From Bacteroidales bacterium (lineage in GTDB: Bacteria; Bacteroidota; Bacteroidia; Bacteroidales; Paludibacteraceae): a DNA stretch of 38,840 nucleotides. Below the pieces are notes generated by a model. It had not been told where the DNA came from, did no database searches, and saw only the letters and a program-made list of their open reading frames with translations. Below, piece after piece: positions 1,471 through 33,193 of this stretch. The position numbers and the translations under genes were made by a program. The stretch covers positions 1 through 38,840 of the forward strand of contig DUQS01000039.1 of the NCBI GenBank assembly GCA_012837685.1, given 5' to 3'. Numbering within the stretch: the first letter of the stretch is position 1; every line of letters begins with the position of its first letter.

Positions 1471-2997
1471 ATGAAAAAACCACGTTTCTATAAGCCCCAA
1501 TGGGAGTTGATAGTGTTAGACCTCGTTATTTGGACGCTGGCTACTTTAATTATGGTGCTTTGGCGTACTCTTACCGATAAAAGTCGCCATGTAGATTATT
1601 GCCTTGTCTGTACTGCCTTGTTTGTTGCCAATCTAATCTTTGGCTATTGTTTCAATAAATACCGTTATTTGCGTGACCATGGTTACTTTTACAACATGAA
1701 GGGAACCACCCTTACGTTCGTTGTGCTTATTTTGGGTCTTGTGGCGGGTTTCTATATCAACGAACTTGGGGGACTTTCCAGCTATGTGCTAATTATGACG
1801 GTAGTTATAGCCTTTGCTTTCAATGTTGGCTTTCTGTTTTTTTATTACGGCTACCGCTATGCGTTGAATATAGACGAAGGTATTATGGAGTTCAACCTCC
1901 GTCCGCCAACGTCTTTGGCTGTAACTCCTCAGCGTTTAAAACCGCAAGCAGAAGAGGCTATCAAACAATCTATATTGGATTTTGCTGATAGAAAAACACT
2001 GAATTTCCTCTCTACTAACTGTGATTTAGGTAGCTCAACAACTTTGGTATTGGCAACTTCCACGCTTTTCAATATTCAATCGCTTGAGAATTATAATTAC
2101 AACTGTATTATAAATTTAAAACGGCTGAATGATATGCGAGGCGTGAATAAAATGTTCTGTGCCATCAATGAAAAACTGCCTGATGGCGGTCTGTTTGTTT
2201 GCCGTTTTAAACCACATAAAGCAACCAAAGTCGCTATTTTACGCAAATATCCGAAAGGTATCAACAAATTGATGTACAGCTTTTATTTCATCTACAAACG
2301 TATATTGCCTAAACTTTTTTTAACCAGTCGTCTCTATTATGATATTACTAAAGGACGCAATCGCGTATTTTCGATTACTGAAGTATTGGGACGGCTCTAT
2401 TTTTGCGGTTTTAAAATTATCAAGGAAAAGGCATTGGGTGACACTTATATGGTAATTGCCCAGCGCGAAAAACAACCTGAAAAACAAGTAAAACGTAAAT
2501 ACGGGCTATTTATCAAACTGCCACGTATAGGTAAAAATAAAAAGAAATTCAATGTTTATAAATTGCGAACTATGCACCCTTATTCCGAGTTTTTGCAGGC
2601 CTATATGTATGAAAAACATCATTTACAGAAAGGCGGTAAAATAAGCAACGATATCCGTGTTAGTACATGGGGACGTTTTTTGCGCAAATATTGGCTCGAT
2701 GAAGTACCGATGCTTATTAATTTACTAAAAGGTGATATGAAAATAGTAGGCGTACGTCCGTTGAGTGCACATTTTTTCAGCCTCTACAGCAAGGAATTAC
2801 AGGATAAACGCACTCAATTTAAACCGGGTCTTTTGCCACCATTTTATGCCGATATGCCCAAAACACTTGAAGAGATACAAAATTCGGAAATGCGCTATCT
2901 CAACGCCTGCGAACAAAAAGGCGTATTTCGGACTGATTGGGTCTATTTTTGGAGAATAATTTACACTATTGTTTTCAAACGCGCACGGAGTAAATAA
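1471..2997 (+). CDS. Membrane-anchored sugar transferase with methyltransferase-like middle
   Basis: A 508-residue protein with three parts. Residues 12-131 hold about four membrane segments. Residues about 165-340 resemble a degenerate SAM-methyltransferase fold ([16 protein letters not shown], then [11 protein letters not shown]). Residues 355-508 are a bacterial sugar transferase (initiating phosphoglycosyl transferase, PglC/WbaP superfamily): [11 protein letters not shown] near 363, the catalytic Asp-Glu dyad in WLDEVP (D410, E411), then [13 protein letters not shown] and [14 protein letters not shown]. Enzymes of this superfamily move a phospho-sugar onto undecaprenyl phosphate in the inner membrane to start glycan assembly. 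The usual amphipathic re-entrant helix just before the catalytic domain is not evident; the four N-terminal helices may replace it. The gene is probably cotranscribed with the FemAB gene 16 nt upstream. Confidence 0.82.
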
Positions 2998-10602: not shown

Positions 10603-11476
10603 GCATTTAACATATAACGAAATTGACCGCACGCGTTGGGATGCGACTATAGCGACAAGTGCTAATAGTTTGCCGTACGCTTATTCGTGGTATTTAGATG
10701 CTGTTTCGCCGCAATGGGAAGCGCTTGCAAGCAACAATTATGAGTTTGTGATGCCGTTACCTGTTAAACGCAAATTTGGCGTGAAATATGTAATTCAGCC
10801 GCGTTGGGTACAGCAGTTGGGTGTTTTTTCGGCGCAACCAATAACGAAAGAAATAGTAAAATCGTTTTTAGCTAAAATTCCTTATTTAAGTTACGATTTC
10901 AACATTAATTATGCTAATAATTTCGGCGAACCGAAACCTAATTCGTTGATTGATTTATCGGTAGATTATGCCACGTTAAAATTGGCTTTTTCCGATAATA
11001 CCAAACGCAATATAACCAAAGCTAAAAAACACAAATTACTTATACAACCAATTGAAATAGAAGAATTTATAAAAATTTGGTCACATGAAAATGGTGATAT
11101 GCCGTATGAATTGCATACCAAATTACCTCTTTTGTGCCATGCAGCTAAAACAAATAACGTTGGAGGGTTTTACGGTGTGTTTTCGGCTAAAACCCAATTG
11201 ATTGCAGCACTTTTTACAATTGAAACAGAGGATAGAATTATCTATCTTGCGCCCGTTTCCAATGCCGAAGGCAAACAAAAATCGGCTATGTTTCTATTGA
11301 TTGATTTTTTGTTGCAAAAATATGCTGAAAGTGGCAAAATTTTCGATTGCGAAGGGTCGCAAATTCCCGGAGTAGCCCGATTTTATGCCGGTTTTGGTGC
11401 GCAACTTCAAACCTATTTCAGAGTTAGTCGCTGTCGTCCTCAATGGTTGGTAAAATTGCTAAACCCTTCTTTCTGA
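10592..11476 (+). CDS. FemAB-like GNAT-fold protein
   Basis: A 294-residue protein starting MVVKHLTYNEIDRTRWD. It has the FemAB/GNAT layout: an N-terminal half with PYAYSWYLDAV and a basic strand (NTKRNITKAKKH), then a C-terminal half ending FDCEGSQIPGVARFYAGFGA, shown as FDCEGSQIPG then VARFYAGFGA. That block corresponds to the G-x-F-y-x-x-F-G region of the superfamily. The substrate is unknown. It overlaps mntP by 11 nt, suggesting translational coupling, and overlaps the convergent glycosyltransferase gene by 37 bp at its 3' end. It is distantly like the FemAB protein at 501-1454, judged by eye. Confidence 0.68.
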   Translation: MVVKHLTYNEIDRTRWDATIATSANSLPYAYSWYLDAVSPQWEALASNNYEFVMPLPVKRKFGVKYVIQPRWVQQLGVFSAQPITKEIVKSFLAKIPYLSYDFNINYANNFGEPKPNSLIDLSVDYATLKLAFSDNTKRNITKAKKHKLLIQPIEIEEFIKIWSHENGDMPYELHTKLPLLCHAAKTNNVGGFYGVFSAKTQLIAALFTIETEDRIIYLAPVSNAEGKQKSAMFLLIDFLLQKYAESGKIFDCEGSQIPGVARFYAGFGAQLQTYFRVSRCRPQWLVKLLNPSF

Positions 11477-28684: not shown

Positions 28685-28708
28685 TTTTTTAGTTTCTAAC
28701 GGGAAAAA

Positions 28709-29449
28709 CTACACCTTTTTTTGTAAAAGTGGTGCTTCTATAATGGTTCGGCTTTTTTCTATAAAATCGTTCAAATTGTCGTGTGTTAAGTCTTTTGTGG
28801 AAAGCGGTTTGTGGATAATCATTTCCAAACGACCGGGGTTAATGAATATAGTGTCCGATGGGCAAGATTCATAAGCACCGGTAATAGTAATCGGCACCAC
28901 TTCCAAATTCAAATTGAGTGCCAAAAAGAAAGCTCCGCGCTTAAACGGTTGTAATTCGCCGGTACGTGTGCGCCTACCTTCGGGAAACAAAACTACCGAT
29001 GCACCATGGCGTAGTGAAGCTTCTGCTTTTTCAATACTCTTTTTTGCTTGTACGGCATTACTTCGGTCTATAAATATATGACCAGCCATTTCGCACGCTT
29101 TGCCCACCAACGGAATTTTCCGAAGTTCCTTCTTCATTATCCATTTAAAACGGCTATTGAGCCAACCATATACCAAAAATATGTCGAAAATGCTTTGGTG
29201 GTTAGCTATAAAAATATAGGATTTGTTCGGGTCGTAATTTTCCGTTCCTTTTACTGTAACTTTCTGAAATGTTAATGCACATATCCATCGCGACCATAAA
29301 ATAGCAGGGTAGTAGGATAGCTTTTTATCTCCTACAAGCATAATGAAAATAATGGTAAATAGTGCCGTAAAAAACGTAATTACCAGCGCAATAGGAAGGA
29401 AAACGACTATTAAGTAGCCAAAAAATAGAGGATTTGTTTTTCGTTTCAT
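28709..29449 (-). CDS. plsC: 1-acyl-sn-glycerol-3-phosphate acyltransferase
   Basis: A 246-residue membrane-associated enzyme that acylates lysophosphatidic acid to phosphatidic acid in phospholipid synthesis. It has one or two N-terminal helices (LVIVVFLPIALVITFF-like stretch in residues 10-38), the NHQSIFD motif (H-x4-D near 79-85), FIDRSNA, FPEGRRTR (near 154-161) and a VVPITITGA block. It is the first gene of a minus-strand operon and ends 24 nt before the OmpA/PD40 gene. A TAACTTTG box at 29466-29473 lies just upstream. Confidence 0.93.
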   Translation of the reverse strand: MKRKTNPLFFGYLIVVFLPIALVITFFTALFTIIFIMLVGDKKLSYYPAILWSRWICALTFQKVTVKGTENYDPNKSYIFIANHQSIFDIFLVYGWLNSRFKWIMKKELRKIPLVGKACEMAGHIFIDRSNAVQAKKSIEKAEASLRHGASVVLFPEGRRTRTGELQPFKRGAFFLALNLNLEVVPITITGAYESCPSDTIFINPGRLEMIIHKPLSTKDLTHDNLNDFIEKSRTIIEAPLLQKKV

Positions 29450-29465
29450 GGGTAGTAATTAATCA

Positions 29466-29473
29466 GCAAAGTT
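29466..29473 (-). promoter_or_regulatory. -7 element of plsC
   Basis: TAACTTTG on the minus strand, 16 nt before the ATG at 29449. The region 19 bp upstream is T-rich (TTTT) rather than TTTG. Confidence 0.55.
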
Positions 29474-29611
29474 ACAATTTTAATTTTAAAAAAGAAGATT
29501 AATTACATTAAATATACAAACAAGTATACCAAAAATCTATTTATGATAGGTTTTTAAACACTTTTAAATAGGAAATTAACAAAATGTGGACTACAAAAGA
29601 AAGGTAAACTA

Positions 29612-29693
29612 AATAAAAAAAGCGGTAGAGAGCAATTACTCCCCCCGCGGGGACTGAGCCGTAGCACAGTCTTAAAGTCAAAAAAGACTTTAC
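29612..29693 (-). ncRNA. Putative small RNA B (downstream member of a tandem pair)
   Basis: A predicted transcript of about 80 nt in the 528-bp gene-free gap between plsC and the AddA gene. It begins at the predicted +1 of a consensus promoter. It has three stems: TAAAGTC/GACTTTA (29673-29692) at the 5' end; GACTG-GC with a C(UACG)G tetraloop and GC-CAGTC (29652-29671); and a 3' stem GCGG/CCGC (29622-29648) followed by seven U. No start codon with a plausible frame lies in it, and no gene follows closely (plsC is 160 bp away, beyond the terminator). I do not recognise the RNA family. The call rests on the promoter-hairpins-terminator layout. Confidence 0.6.
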
Positions 29694-29697
29694 GTTG

Positions 29698-29728
29698 CAA
29701 AGATACAAAATAATTTCAATATACCAAA
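29698..29728 (-). promoter_or_regulatory. Promoter of putative small RNA B
   Basis: On the minus strand TTTG (29725-29728), exactly 19 bp, then TATCTTTG (29698-29705). This is a full-consensus Bacteroidetes promoter and part of the second copy of a 41-bp direct repeat. Confidence 0.75.
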
Positions 29729-29743
29729 CTTTTTTACAAAAAA
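29703..29743 (-). repeat. 41-bp direct repeat, copy 1
   Basis: Identical over 41 bp to 29840-29880 and in the same orientation. It covers the promoter from the -33 region to the first bases of the -7 box, plus the T-tail of the upstream small RNA terminator. Confidence 0.9.
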
Positions 29744-29830
29744 ATAAAGAGTAGCGGCGACTTAGGTCTACGCCAGGTATGCTATTCTACTCTTTATTCG
29801 TTGTTTTGCACCGTAAAGACACAAAACAAC
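29738..29830 (-). ncRNA. Putative small RNA A (upstream member of a tandem pair)
   Basis: A predicted transcript of about 90 nt. It starts with a perfect 9-bp stem GTTGTTTTG/CAAAACAAC (29800-29830) placed exactly at the predicted +1. It ends with a perfect 12-bp stem AATAAAGAGTAG/CTACTCTTTATT (29743-29798) and a run of seven U, a textbook intrinsic terminator. Inside the second stem a GGC/GCC plus GAC/GTC sub-hairpin lies at 29756-29774. It is followed directly by the promoter of small RNA B. I recognise no RNA family. A 66-codon frame crosses this stretch but starts upstream of the promoter and is not convincing. Confidence 0.62.
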
Positions 29831-29834
29831 ATTA

Positions 29835-29865
29835 CAAAAATACAAAATAATTTCAATATACCAAA
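29835..29865 (-). promoter_or_regulatory. Promoter of putative small RNA A
   Basis: On the minus strand TTTG (29862-29865), 19 bp, then TATTTTTG (29835-29842). It is the first copy of the duplicated promoter and differs from the other only in the last bases of the -7 box. Confidence 0.7.
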
Positions 29866-29880
29866 CTTTTTTACAAAAAA
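29840..29880 (-). repeat. 41-bp direct repeat, copy 2
   Basis: Identical to 29703-29743, with a 137-bp offset between the copies. It carries the promoter of small RNA A. Confidence 0.9.
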
Positions 29881-29947
29881 TGTAAGTTTTTATTTGTTTA
29901 ACAATAAAAGAAAAAGAACAAAGAAAATCTAACTGCCATTTTTTTAT

Positions 29948-29955
29948 TATCTTTG
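29948..29955 (+). promoter_or_regulatory. -7 element of the addA-type gene
   Basis: TATCTTTG, 22 nt before the ATG at 29978. No TTTG is found at 19-21 bp upstream. The small RNA promoters point the other way from the same gap. Confidence 0.6.
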
Positions 29956-29977
29956 CTCCGAAAACCACGCGAAAATA

Positions 29978-32900
29978 ATGCCAGAAACCCTTCTTGAAAT
30001 TTGCAAAGCATCAGCCGGTTCGGGAAAAACTTTCCGACTTACCTACGAATATATCAAGCTGCTTTATACCAATCGTTTAGACAGTCAGTCTTATCGTCAT
30101 ATTTTGGCTGTAACGTTTACCAACAAAGCCACCGATGAGATGAAAAAACGCATTATAAGCGAACTTTTCAATCTCACCACAAACAAATCACAGTACACCG
30201 CCAATTTAAAACGCGATTTTCCCGAACTTTCGCAAGAGGAATGCCAAAAAATTGCGAGACAGTTTCTCAATCAAATATTATTCGATTATTCAGGATTTCA
30301 AATCAGTACCATTGATGCGTTTTTCCAACAAATAGTCTCTGCTTTTACACGAGAAATAGGCTTACAAAACGGCTATTCGGTGGAATTGGATACCGATACC
30401 GTACTTGAACAGTCCATCAGCAATATGTTGTTCGATTTGGACAAAAGTGAAAACAAGGAATTGCTTAATTGGCTTATTGATTTTTCGGAAAAGCGCGTAG
30501 GCGAATCTTCGTCAAAATGGGATTTTACAACCGAAATAGCTGATTTATCAAACCAACTTTTTACGGAAACTTACAAAAAACATATCGAAGAACTTTCAAA
30601 TATTCTATCCGATAAAAACAAGCTGAAAAATTACCGTAAAAAATTGCAAGACATCATTACACAGTTTGATGAAAAAATGGCAAAAATTGCCGACAGTGCC
30701 GATGACGTTCTAAAAAAATATGCTTTGCAGCCAACCGATTTTAAATATACGAAAGGGTCGTTTTACAACATTTTTCCAAAATTAAGAGAAAAAAATTACG
30801 AACCAAGCAAACGCGCTAAACAAGCCGAAAATAACCTAGAAGAGTGGTACTCTACGCAAACTGCTCCCGATATCAAAGCACGGATAGAAAAGGCTTATAA
30901 TGAGCTTAATCCGCTTTTATCGGAGGCACTTAATTTGCTCGATAGCGATCAATCCAAAGATTATTTTACAGCAAAATCAGCCATCAAAAACTTATTTATT
31001 TTGGGTATTCTGTCCGATGTTGAAAATTATATACAGCAATACACCAACGAAAACAACCTAATGCTGATAAGCAATACCAATGATTTTTTAGACAAAATTA
31101 TCAAAGGCAGCGACACTCCATTTATTTACGAAAAAACGGGAGTTACGCTTGCACATTATTTAATAGATGAATTTCAGGACACTTCGGCACAACAATGGAA
31201 CAATTTTCTGCCATTGCTCCGTGAAAGTATTGCAAAGGGTCACAAAAATCTCATTGTAGGAGACGTAAAGCAAAGCATCTATCGATGGCGGAATTCCGAT
31301 TGGAAACTGCTAAATCAACAAGTGATGGAAGATTTTAAAGCCATTAACCCGCAAATTAACGTATTAGACACCAATTGGCGCAGTGACAAAAACGTTATTT
31401 TGTTCAACAATATGGCTTTTACATCTATAGCCAATCAATTGGCTAACTCGTTTGATGACACAGAAGAGGCTCAAAAGCGTGCGGAAACCATACGGCAAAT
31501 CTATTCAGACGAAGTAAAGCAAAAAATATCCCCAAACGCTAAAGAGGGCTATGTGCAGGTGTCGTTTATGAAATCGGCGAGTAGCTGGCAAAAACAAGTG
31601 CTTGAAAATTTGGCAACAACCATAGAAAAAATGCAGGAAGCCGGTTATCTATTACGGCAAATGGCAATATTGACGCGCACCAACAGAGAAGCCGGCGAAA
31701 TTGCAAATTTCCTGCTCAATTATGCGGAAGAACATCCTGAAAAGCAAAATTACAAATACAACGTCATTTCAAACGAAGCTCTTTTGCTCGAATCATCATT
31801 GTCTATTCAATTCATTATCAGTCTGCTTACTTATTTGGCAAATCCTAAAGAGAGCCACAACAACGCCATATTGATAACGCAATATTCCAAATTGAAACAT
31901 TTGAGTTTGGAAAAAACTAACAATTTGCTGGGCAAATTAGTCAGCGAAAAAGAGTGGGTGCCCAAACTTTTTGGAACGGAAACGGCTAATGCGCTGGAAA
32001 CCATTGAATATACTTCGCTTTTCAACCTTACCGAGCAAATTATCATTCTTTTCGATTTGTCGGACAGTAACGATACCGCCTTTCTGCAAGGTTTTCAAGA
32101 TTGTATCTACGAATATTCGCAAACCAACGGTTCGGACATCAAAGATTTTTTAGATTATTGGGAGAAAAAGTCGAGTAAACAATTTTTAGTGGCTTCCGAC
32201 TCACAAGAAGCCATACGTATTATGACCATCCATTCGTCCAAAGGTCTCGAATTTGACACAGTATTTGTTCCGTTCTGCGATTGGACGTTCAACGAACACG
32301 ACTATAAAATACTTTGGTGCGAACCCCAGGAAGCACCTTTCAACGAAATGCCCATTATTCCTGTTAATTACGAAAAAAAACTAGCAAACAGCTTTTTCAA
32401 CACCGATTATTACAACGAACAACTATATAACTACATCGACACTCTCAACGTGGCTTACGTTGCATTTACAAGAGCTAAACACAACTTATGTCTGTGGGTA
32501 AAACCGTTACCTAAAAATCAAGACAGCTTACAAATATCTACTGTACTACATCAATTTTGCACTACTTCCGAATTTTCATTTAAGCAAAGTGATGGAGAAA
32601 ATTGCACGCAATTCACATTGGGCAAACTTGCAACAAATGCCAACAAAAAGGCATCAACACCATCCGATTATATAAGCGACAGCTATCCGTCAGTTTTGGC
32701 ACACGATAAGCTGAAATTGCACTATCAATATTCAATTAATGGAGAAGAAAGTTTTAGTGGCAACGACACACGGAAATATGGTATAATCATGCACAATTTG
32801 ATTGCGAATATAGATAATATAAACGACATAAAAAACTATTCGCAATCGTTGGTAAATCAAGGAATTATCACAGCCGAAGAAAAACTGAAATTGGACAAAA

Positions 32901-33193
32901 ACTTAGAATCATTTTTCAGTAATGAGAAAGTAAAAGATTGGTTTTCAGGAAAATATAAAGTACTCAACGAAAAAGAAATCCTTCTTCCCAACGGTTCCGT
33001 TTACCGTCCGGATAGGATAATGATACACAATAATAGAGCAATTGTTGTCGATTATAAATTCGGCAATGCCAAACAAAACAATTATCACTACCAAGTGCGG
33101 CGCTATATCCGTTTTCTTACTCAAATGGGCTACGAAACGGAAGGTTATATCTACTACGTCGCCATGGGAGAAATAGAACAAGTACATCTATAA
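29978..33193 (+). CDS. addA: AddA/RecB-type helicase-nuclease (UvrD helicase with C-terminal PD-(D/E)XK nuclease)
   Basis: A 1071-residue superfamily 1A helicase-nuclease for double-strand break processing. Motifs in order: Walker A ASAGSGKT (11-18), motif Ia AVTFTNKATDEMKKR, motif II DEFQDTS (D397, E398), motif III VGDVKQSIYRWRN, motif IV TNWRS, motif V MTIHSSKGLEFD, motif VI YVAFTRAKH, and a nuclease domain with YRPDR (D1012) and VDYKFG (D1025, K1027). The layout matches AddA more than RecB. The partner AddB is not next to it in this window. It is followed by the Nif3-family gene after 11 nt, so these are likely cotranscribed. Confidence 0.88.
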   Translation: MPETLLEICKASAGSGKTFRLTYEYIKLLYTNRLDSQSYRHILAVTFTNKATDEMKKRIISELFNLTTNKSQYTANLKRDFPELSQEECQKIARQFLNQILFDYSGFQISTIDAFFQQIVSAFTREIGLQNGYSVELDTDTVLEQSISNMLFDLDKSENKELLNWLIDFSEKRVGESSSKWDFTTEIADLSNQLFTETYKKHIEELSNILSDKNKLKNYRKKLQDIITQFDEKMAKIADSADDVLKKYALQPTDFKYTKGSFYNIFPKLREKNYEPSKRAKQAENNLEEWYSTQTAPDIKARIEKAYNELNPLLSEALNLLDSDQSKDYFTAKSAIKNLFILGILSDVENYIQQYTNENNLMLISNTNDFLDKIIKGSDTPFIYEKTGVTLAHYLIDEFQDTSAQQWNNFLPLLRESIAKGHKNLIVGDVKQSIYRWRNSDWKLLNQQVMEDFKAINPQINVLDTNWRSDKNVILFNNMAFTSIANQLANSFDDTEEAQKRAETIRQIYSDEVKQKISPNAKEGYVQVSFMKSASSWQKQVLENLATTIEKMQEAGYLLRQMAILTRTNREAGEIANFLLNYAEEHPEKQNYKYNVISNEALLLESSLSIQFIISLLTYLANPKESHNNAILITQYSKLKHLSLEKTNNLLGKLVSEKEWVPKLFGTETANALETIEYTSLFNLTEQIIILFDLSDSNDTAFLQGFQDCIYEYSQTNGSDIKDFLDYWEKKSSKQFLVASDSQEAIRIMTIHSSKGLEFDTVFVPFCDWTFNEHDYKILWCEPQEAPFNEMPIIPVNYEKKLANSFFNTDYYNEQLYNYIDTLNVAYVAFTRAKHNLCLWVKPLPKNQDSLQISTVLHQFCTTSEFSFKQSDGENCTQFTLGKLATNANKKASTPSDYISDSYPSVLAHDKLKLHYQYSINGEESFSGNDTRKYGIIMHNLIANIDNINDIKNYSQSLVNQGIITAEEKLKLDKNLESFFSNEKVKDWFSGKYKVLNEKEILLPNGSVYRPDRIMIHNNRAIVVDYKFGNAKQNNYHYQVRRYIRFLTQMGYETEGYIYYVAMGEIEQVHL

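Follow-up and report, generated by a model that had tools for sequence, protein, structure and literature searches.

Two candidate small RNA genes between plsC and an AddA-type gene in a Paludibacteraceae genome, one of them a probable member of a small Bacteroidales RNA family with a UACG hairpin

Results

Two compact units in a divergent intergenic gap

The window, a stretch of 38,840 nt, corresponds to contig C7 in a genome of 1.77 Mb (99 contigs) from a member of the Bacteroidales family Paludibacteraceae. Within it, plsC and an AddA-type gene are divergent and separated by a gap of 528 nt. The nearest match of PlsC (73%) is in the MAG Paludibacteraceae bacterium STD2_129, and both flanking genes have a separate TAnnTTTG box close to their start. 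The gap also holds two compact, consecutive minus-strand units, RNA A and RNA B, which look like small non-coding RNA genes and are known here from sequence alone. The features of the locus are as follows.

28709-29449, minus strand: plsC, acyltransferase
29467-29474, minus strand: plsC's own TAACTTTG box, read from the sequence and also found in the sister genome G001
29615-29697, minus strand: candidate RNA B, with a predicted 5' hairpin, a UACG hairpin, a bulged terminator and seven T
29615-29621, minus strand: seven-T tract of RNA B, from the sequence
29622-29648, minus strand: bulged terminator of RNA B, predicted fold
29652-29671, minus strand: conserved C(UACG)G hairpin of RNA B, GACTGTGCTACGGCTCAGTC, which defines the family and has relatives in genomes G092, G672 and G573
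29673-29692, minus strand: 5' hairpin of RNA B, predicted fold
29692-29743, minus strand: promoter block of RNA B, with TTTG-N19-TATCTTTG at 29698-29728; it overlaps the T tract of RNA A
29738-29830, minus strand: candidate RNA A, with a 5' hairpin, a 12-bp stem around a smaller stem, then seven T
29787-29798 with 29743-29754, minus strand: 12-bp stem of RNA A, perfectly paired and enclosing the smaller stem
29800-29830, minus strand: 5' hairpin of RNA A, predicted fold
29829-29880, minus strand: promoter block of RNA A, with TTTG-N19-TATTTTTG at 29835-29865
29948-29955, plus strand: the AddA-type gene's own TATCTTTG box, read from the sequence
29978-33193, plus strand: AddA-type gene, UvrD helicase domains

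This is the layout that an earlier sequence-only reading had described, and its account of the two promoters, the perfect stem of RNA A and the C(UACG)G stem and seven-T terminator of RNA B is borne out at these coordinates. Both units have an intrinsic terminator at their 3' end and, as that reading had also stated, finish ahead of plsC without overlapping a gene.

The pattern TTTG-N19-TAnnTTTG is exact at both units and has no other match in the window, where 0.66 are expected; the count alone is weak evidence, as 12 shuffles in 100 do equally well. Stronger evidence comes from the duplication of the promoter, the folds relative to shuffled sequences and the intergenic uniqueness of the box-plus-terminator arrangement. 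The promoter blocks of A and B are 52-nt copies with 94% identity at a spacing of 137, a true duplication, as the reading had proposed. The 101-nt stretch containing RNA A (29733-29833) folds at -30.5 kcal/mol (z -4.0) and that containing RNA B (29608-29697) at -32.9 kcal/mol (z -4.6), with none of 200 shuffles as good in either case; for the shorter 3' parts alone (z -3.5 for A, -2.9 for B), one of 200 shuffles was equal in each. In both, the first predicted hairpin begins about 5 nt past the -7 box, which refines the earlier reading's placement of it exactly at the predicted +1, and the predicted fold of RNA A leaves a stretch of about 11 nt unpaired within the terminator stem-loop. A TAnnTTTG box with a terminator no more than 140 nt behind it occurs nine times in the window (five times in the reversed-sequence control), and only A and B lie outside listed genes. 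A simple consensus scan of positions 28700-30100, which models sigma-70 promoters only, found no promoter in the gap; it detected the terminator of RNA B and missed that of RNA A, whose loop is too long for the scan.

The absence of a coding frame, claimed at the outset, very nearly holds. Frames of 20-66 aa traverse the units, mostly with TTG or GTG starts, and the first hairpin of RNA A contains a nearly leaderless 12-codon ATG frame (MLFCVFTVQNNE, 29794-29832, minus strand), which is probably due to chance. The gap has no match in Rfam at gathering scores, in agreement with the earlier statement that no known family was recognized; the four matches below gathering in the gap (E up to 10) are at chance level, and the seven around the relatives of RNA B described below (E up to 5) are likewise all below gathering.

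The only other genome of the genus examined, G001 (87% complete), keeps the plsC-addA pair with a gap of 170 nt that has neither unit. The two gaps align too poorly for an insertion site to be visible. A and B were either gained in the lineage of the window or lost in that of G001. Among 146 loci, many with short flanks, no further genome has plsC and addA adjacent.

A promoter shared with a third unit

The 27-nt promoter core has three copies in the window genome (at most 3 mismatches) and none in G001; in 358 genomes of the family it matches in five others, with 3 mismatches each. The third copy lies on contig C88, flanked on one side by rsfS and on the other by what resembles, by eye, a gene for a TPR protein. 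Behind it lies unit C (locus L147, 1841-1945), a hairpin-rich stretch with a strong terminator and a fold of z -3.9 with flanks and -4.5 alone. Its -7 box reads TATCCCCG, broken relative to the consensus, and unit C is therefore possibly inactive or started elsewhere. Units A, B and C have the promoter in common and differ in their bodies. Two 8-mers, AGTCCCCG and GCGGGGGG, are found in both B and C; we judged this too little for homology. Predicted pairing among A, B and C is unexceptional, the observed energies being reached by 66, 112 and 48 of 200 shuffles.

A similar promoter is found in another genome of the family, G002, where three rRNA operons (loci L010, L024 and L027) have an A/B-like promoter about 320 nt ahead of the 16S gene, consisting of GTTTGGTATATTGA, a spacing of 19 and TATCTTTG. 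In the window, by contrast, this type of promoter is predicted to drive short hairpin-rich units. Because the core resembles the rRNA-operon promoters of G002, we infer that the promoter of A and B is of a strong, stable-RNA type.

RNA B has relatives in three further genomes

Three more Bacteroidales genomes contain the hairpin of RNA B, each with a TAnnTTTG box ahead of it and a terminator behind it: G092, from the same family and another genus; G672, from another family; and G573, from a third family. A covariance model of RNA B matched in six of 120 genomes, five besides the window. One of these is G092, where TTTG-N19-TAATTTTG precedes the hairpin GACAGTGCTACGGCTCGGTC and the terminator closely resembles RNA B's; as the model rewards terminators, this member is not independent support for the terminator. 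The other four matches were rejected as resembling ordinary terminators or coding DNA. At the G092 locus (L279), a gene for a 157-aa CdiA_C-domain protein (1734-2207, minus strand) ends inside the member's terminator.

In a pattern search, the hairpin motif with at most two mismatches occurs at 13 places in 12 of 393 genomes of the order, of which the window and G672 were kept, the latter with a box, a perfect stem and a terminator. The bare motif is not enriched, given about 31 places in the reversed control (a total taken as the listing count). A box-plus-head pattern gave 31 places in 30 of 358 family genomes, relative to about 47 in its reversed control (again the listing count); 30 were inspected and only G092 was kept. 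This pattern misses the window's own RNA B, whose spacer is one base too long for it.

G573 was found with a 26-nt hairpin model built from the window, G092 and G672, which gave 29 matches in 28 of 388 genomes of the order. The window, G672 and G573 were kept, G573 as the sole addition to the other two that combines box, hairpin and terminator; no box lies within 60 nt of the remaining 26. Across 208 loci, the share of positions with both a box and a terminator is 0.06% in coding and 0.16% in intergenic sequence. The 27 matches besides the window and G672 comprise 25 in long open frames and two outside; at these rates about 0.02 box-plus-terminator arrangements are expected among them, and G573 was found. 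The same model gave ten matches in nine genomes among 45 relatives of G672 and no new member (five matches not seen before have no box), and on 71 loci it recovered the known three and two weak matches only.

BLASTN with the gap matched in 17 of 61 genomes. Besides the window's own, the matches are short AT-rich stretches, mostly of promoters, and among the 29 segments listed none has an RNA body downstream except unit C. The neighbors of the relatives of RNA B differ, including an S4-domain gene and nadA in G573 and an alpha-galactosidase-like gene (by eye) in G672. Because the hairpin is accompanied by a similar promoter-like box and terminator in the three other genomes as well, RNA B probably represents a small undescribed Bacteroidales RNA family, as far as searched, and in the genomes covered this predicted family is rare and patchy in distribution. 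A literature search, which was not exhaustive, found no description of the UACG hairpin motif.

Viral and other mobile sequences were also searched. In IMG/VR, three patterns gave 2, 13 and 18 stretches, the two recurring among the 18, and the 45 nt upstream of each of the 31 distinct stretches contain no TAnnTTTG box; BLASTN against phages and plasmids yielded no convincing member. Three IMG/VR contigs (L256, L266 and L271) carry the exact hairpin GACGATGCTACGGCTTCGTC shortly ahead of an ATG, with neither box nor terminator, and their similar flanks suggest related phages. These searches bear on the idea that promoter, hairpin and terminator travel together as a small mobile or repeated element, an idea that draws on the patchy distribution with differing neighbors, the tandem duplication of the promoter, the absence of the units from G001 and a report of the FopS small RNA sequence in a phage (PMC11697453). 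We consider it very unlikely: the hairpin has one match in the window genome at E ≤ 0.3, the promoter core has only its three copies, and no boxed member was seen in IMG/VR nor a convincing one in phages or plasmids. Membership in a known mobile or repeat element, which the earlier reading had named as a ground for refutation, is not indicated by the genomic counts.

Conserved hairpin head and paired changes

Members of the RNA B family have the same order of parts: the box, 4-27 nt, the hairpin, a short linker and the terminator. The exact TTTG at -33 is found in B and G092 and not in G672 or G573, and B and G573 have an extra 5' hairpin between the box and the UACG hairpin. The hairpin consensus of the four members is GAC-NN-U-NC-UACG-GN-U-NN-GUC (in the window, GAC-NN-U-GC-UACG-GC-U-NN-GUC). 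Its UACG head is the same in all four members except for one pair, in which GC is replaced by UA in G573, a compensatory change, and the linkers vary among the members. The terminator has a predicted inner stem of 7-9 bp, and its 3' side carries a bulged base in most predicted folds; in G573 the bulge is present in one predicted fold and absent in another. The folds of the relatives range from modest in G092 (z -2.4, with six of 200 shuffles as good) to z -5.5 in G672 and -4.8 in G573.

In the four hairpins, 27 of 28 cells pair (the unpaired cell is in G092) and three of the seven pairs change on both sides, from four sequences only. The paired fraction and the covariation score were each reached by one of 500 shuffles, which with four sequences are counts and not probabilities. 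Less direct measures were unremarkable, with shuffles reaching the observed two-sided pairs in 55 of 500, two-sided cells in 11 of 500 and further pair types in 214 of 500. When the pairing partner is slid, pairing falls to 18-57%.

These data also bear on whether the units have any function in trans. They could be transcribed remnants, or neutral promoter-terminator pairs, that insulate plsC from the divergent AddA-type gene, as might be read from their absence in G001, the lack of relatives of RNA A and the broken -7 box of unit C. However, the pairing and head of the B hairpin are kept across three families, and the relatives of B adjoin other genes; we regard neutral units as quite unlikely.

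RNA A has no detected relative

No relative of RNA A was found by gap BLASTN in 61 genomes or with a covariance model in 120. The model matched in three genomes including the window, and both remaining matches were rejected by eye: the one in G020 is a hairpin without a box, and the one in G134 is a leader hairpin ahead of an ATG. The latter (contig C20, about 10822-10911, minus strand; locus L161) is a long hairpin between a TATCTTTG box and the ATG, much like a messenger leader. RNA A would be a small RNA of its own, probably a young one.

The proposal of two independent small RNA genes thus gains from the promoters, folds, terminators and, for B, relatives with compensatory changes, and is left without relatives on the side of A. 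Conservation of the stems in related genomes was found likewise for B (G092, G672 and G573) and not for A, and G001 has neither unit.

Discussion

The original observation is sound and, taken together, the results describe candidates for an ordinary kind of gene, with a probable new family for RNA B on modest evidence. As a whole, the best explanation in our view, to which we give an even chance, is that A and B are two independent small RNA genes, with B belonging to a rare undescribed family that acts in trans through a protein-read head and A being unrelated to it. Each would be transcribed from a housekeeping-sigma, stable-RNA-like promoter to its own intrinsic terminator. RNA B would have a covarying stem topped by the invariant head U-NC-UACG-GN-U, followed by a linker and a terminator that mostly has one bulged base. 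It would act in trans, with the head recognized by a protein, either as a decoy or in a small RNP, and not by way of a single-stranded seed. RNA A would be a second, unrelated RNA that acquired its promoter through the duplication. A more specific possibility, which we think unlikely, is that a dedicated protein binds this new UACG-hairpin family and that, in this species, RNA B and the unrelated A and C form a set of three under near-identical promoters of the rRNA type; the levels of all three would then follow growth in concert.

Small RNAs of this general layout are known in the phylum. In Bacteroides thetaiotaomicron, 49 high-confidence intergenic sRNAs with a start site and a terminator are reported, 22 of them conserved in at least two genera (PMC7366714). 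A and B, whose start is only predicted, are likened to them by layout. A 2010 survey of candidate structured RNAs in Bacteroidetes (PMC2864571) concerns the same phylum and found its RNAs by comparison. Those of its RNAs that have Rfam numbers give no match to A or B at gathering scores, a comparison that leaves out Bacteroides-2 and GUCCY-hairpin, for which the survey's table gives no Rfam number (PMC2864571).

The closest functional models, as their published accounts portray them, are GibS, which keeps a single-stranded 5' seed (PMC7366714), and FopS, which has a single-stranded 5' stretch and a terminator and forms a set of paralogues (PMC11697453). A and B resemble both in being intergenic, short and ended by an intrinsic terminator, with a mostly canonical sigma-AB promoter in the case of FopS (PMC7366714, PMC11697453). 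Unlike these RNAs with a 5' seed, A and B start with a predicted hairpin about 5 nt past the box, and B keeps its hairpin head; moreover, the FopS paralogues have a common body, and A, B and C a common promoter with differing bodies.

The main rival to a protein-read RNA B is base pairing, in which A and B would be regulators like GibS and FopS whose loops or linkers pair with mRNA starts, perhaps together with an RRM protein such as RbpB. This is the mode of both of those Bacteroides sRNAs (PMC7366714, PMC11697453), and the roughly 11 unpaired nt in the terminator stem-loop of RNA A may be the place to seek a seed. RNA B, however, has little unpaired sequence and its linkers are not conserved among the four members, and we hold base pairing to be possible and somewhat unlikely. 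For RNA B, recognition by a protein is favored because the linkers differ among members while the hairpin head is kept.

If the B family does keep its hairpin head, it would point to an RNA-binding protein in Bacteroidetes, for which the hairpin would be a small bait, in contrast to GibS and FopS with their single-stranded seeds. Even if the family proves ordinary, the 26-nt hairpin model makes it searchable in metatranscriptomes.
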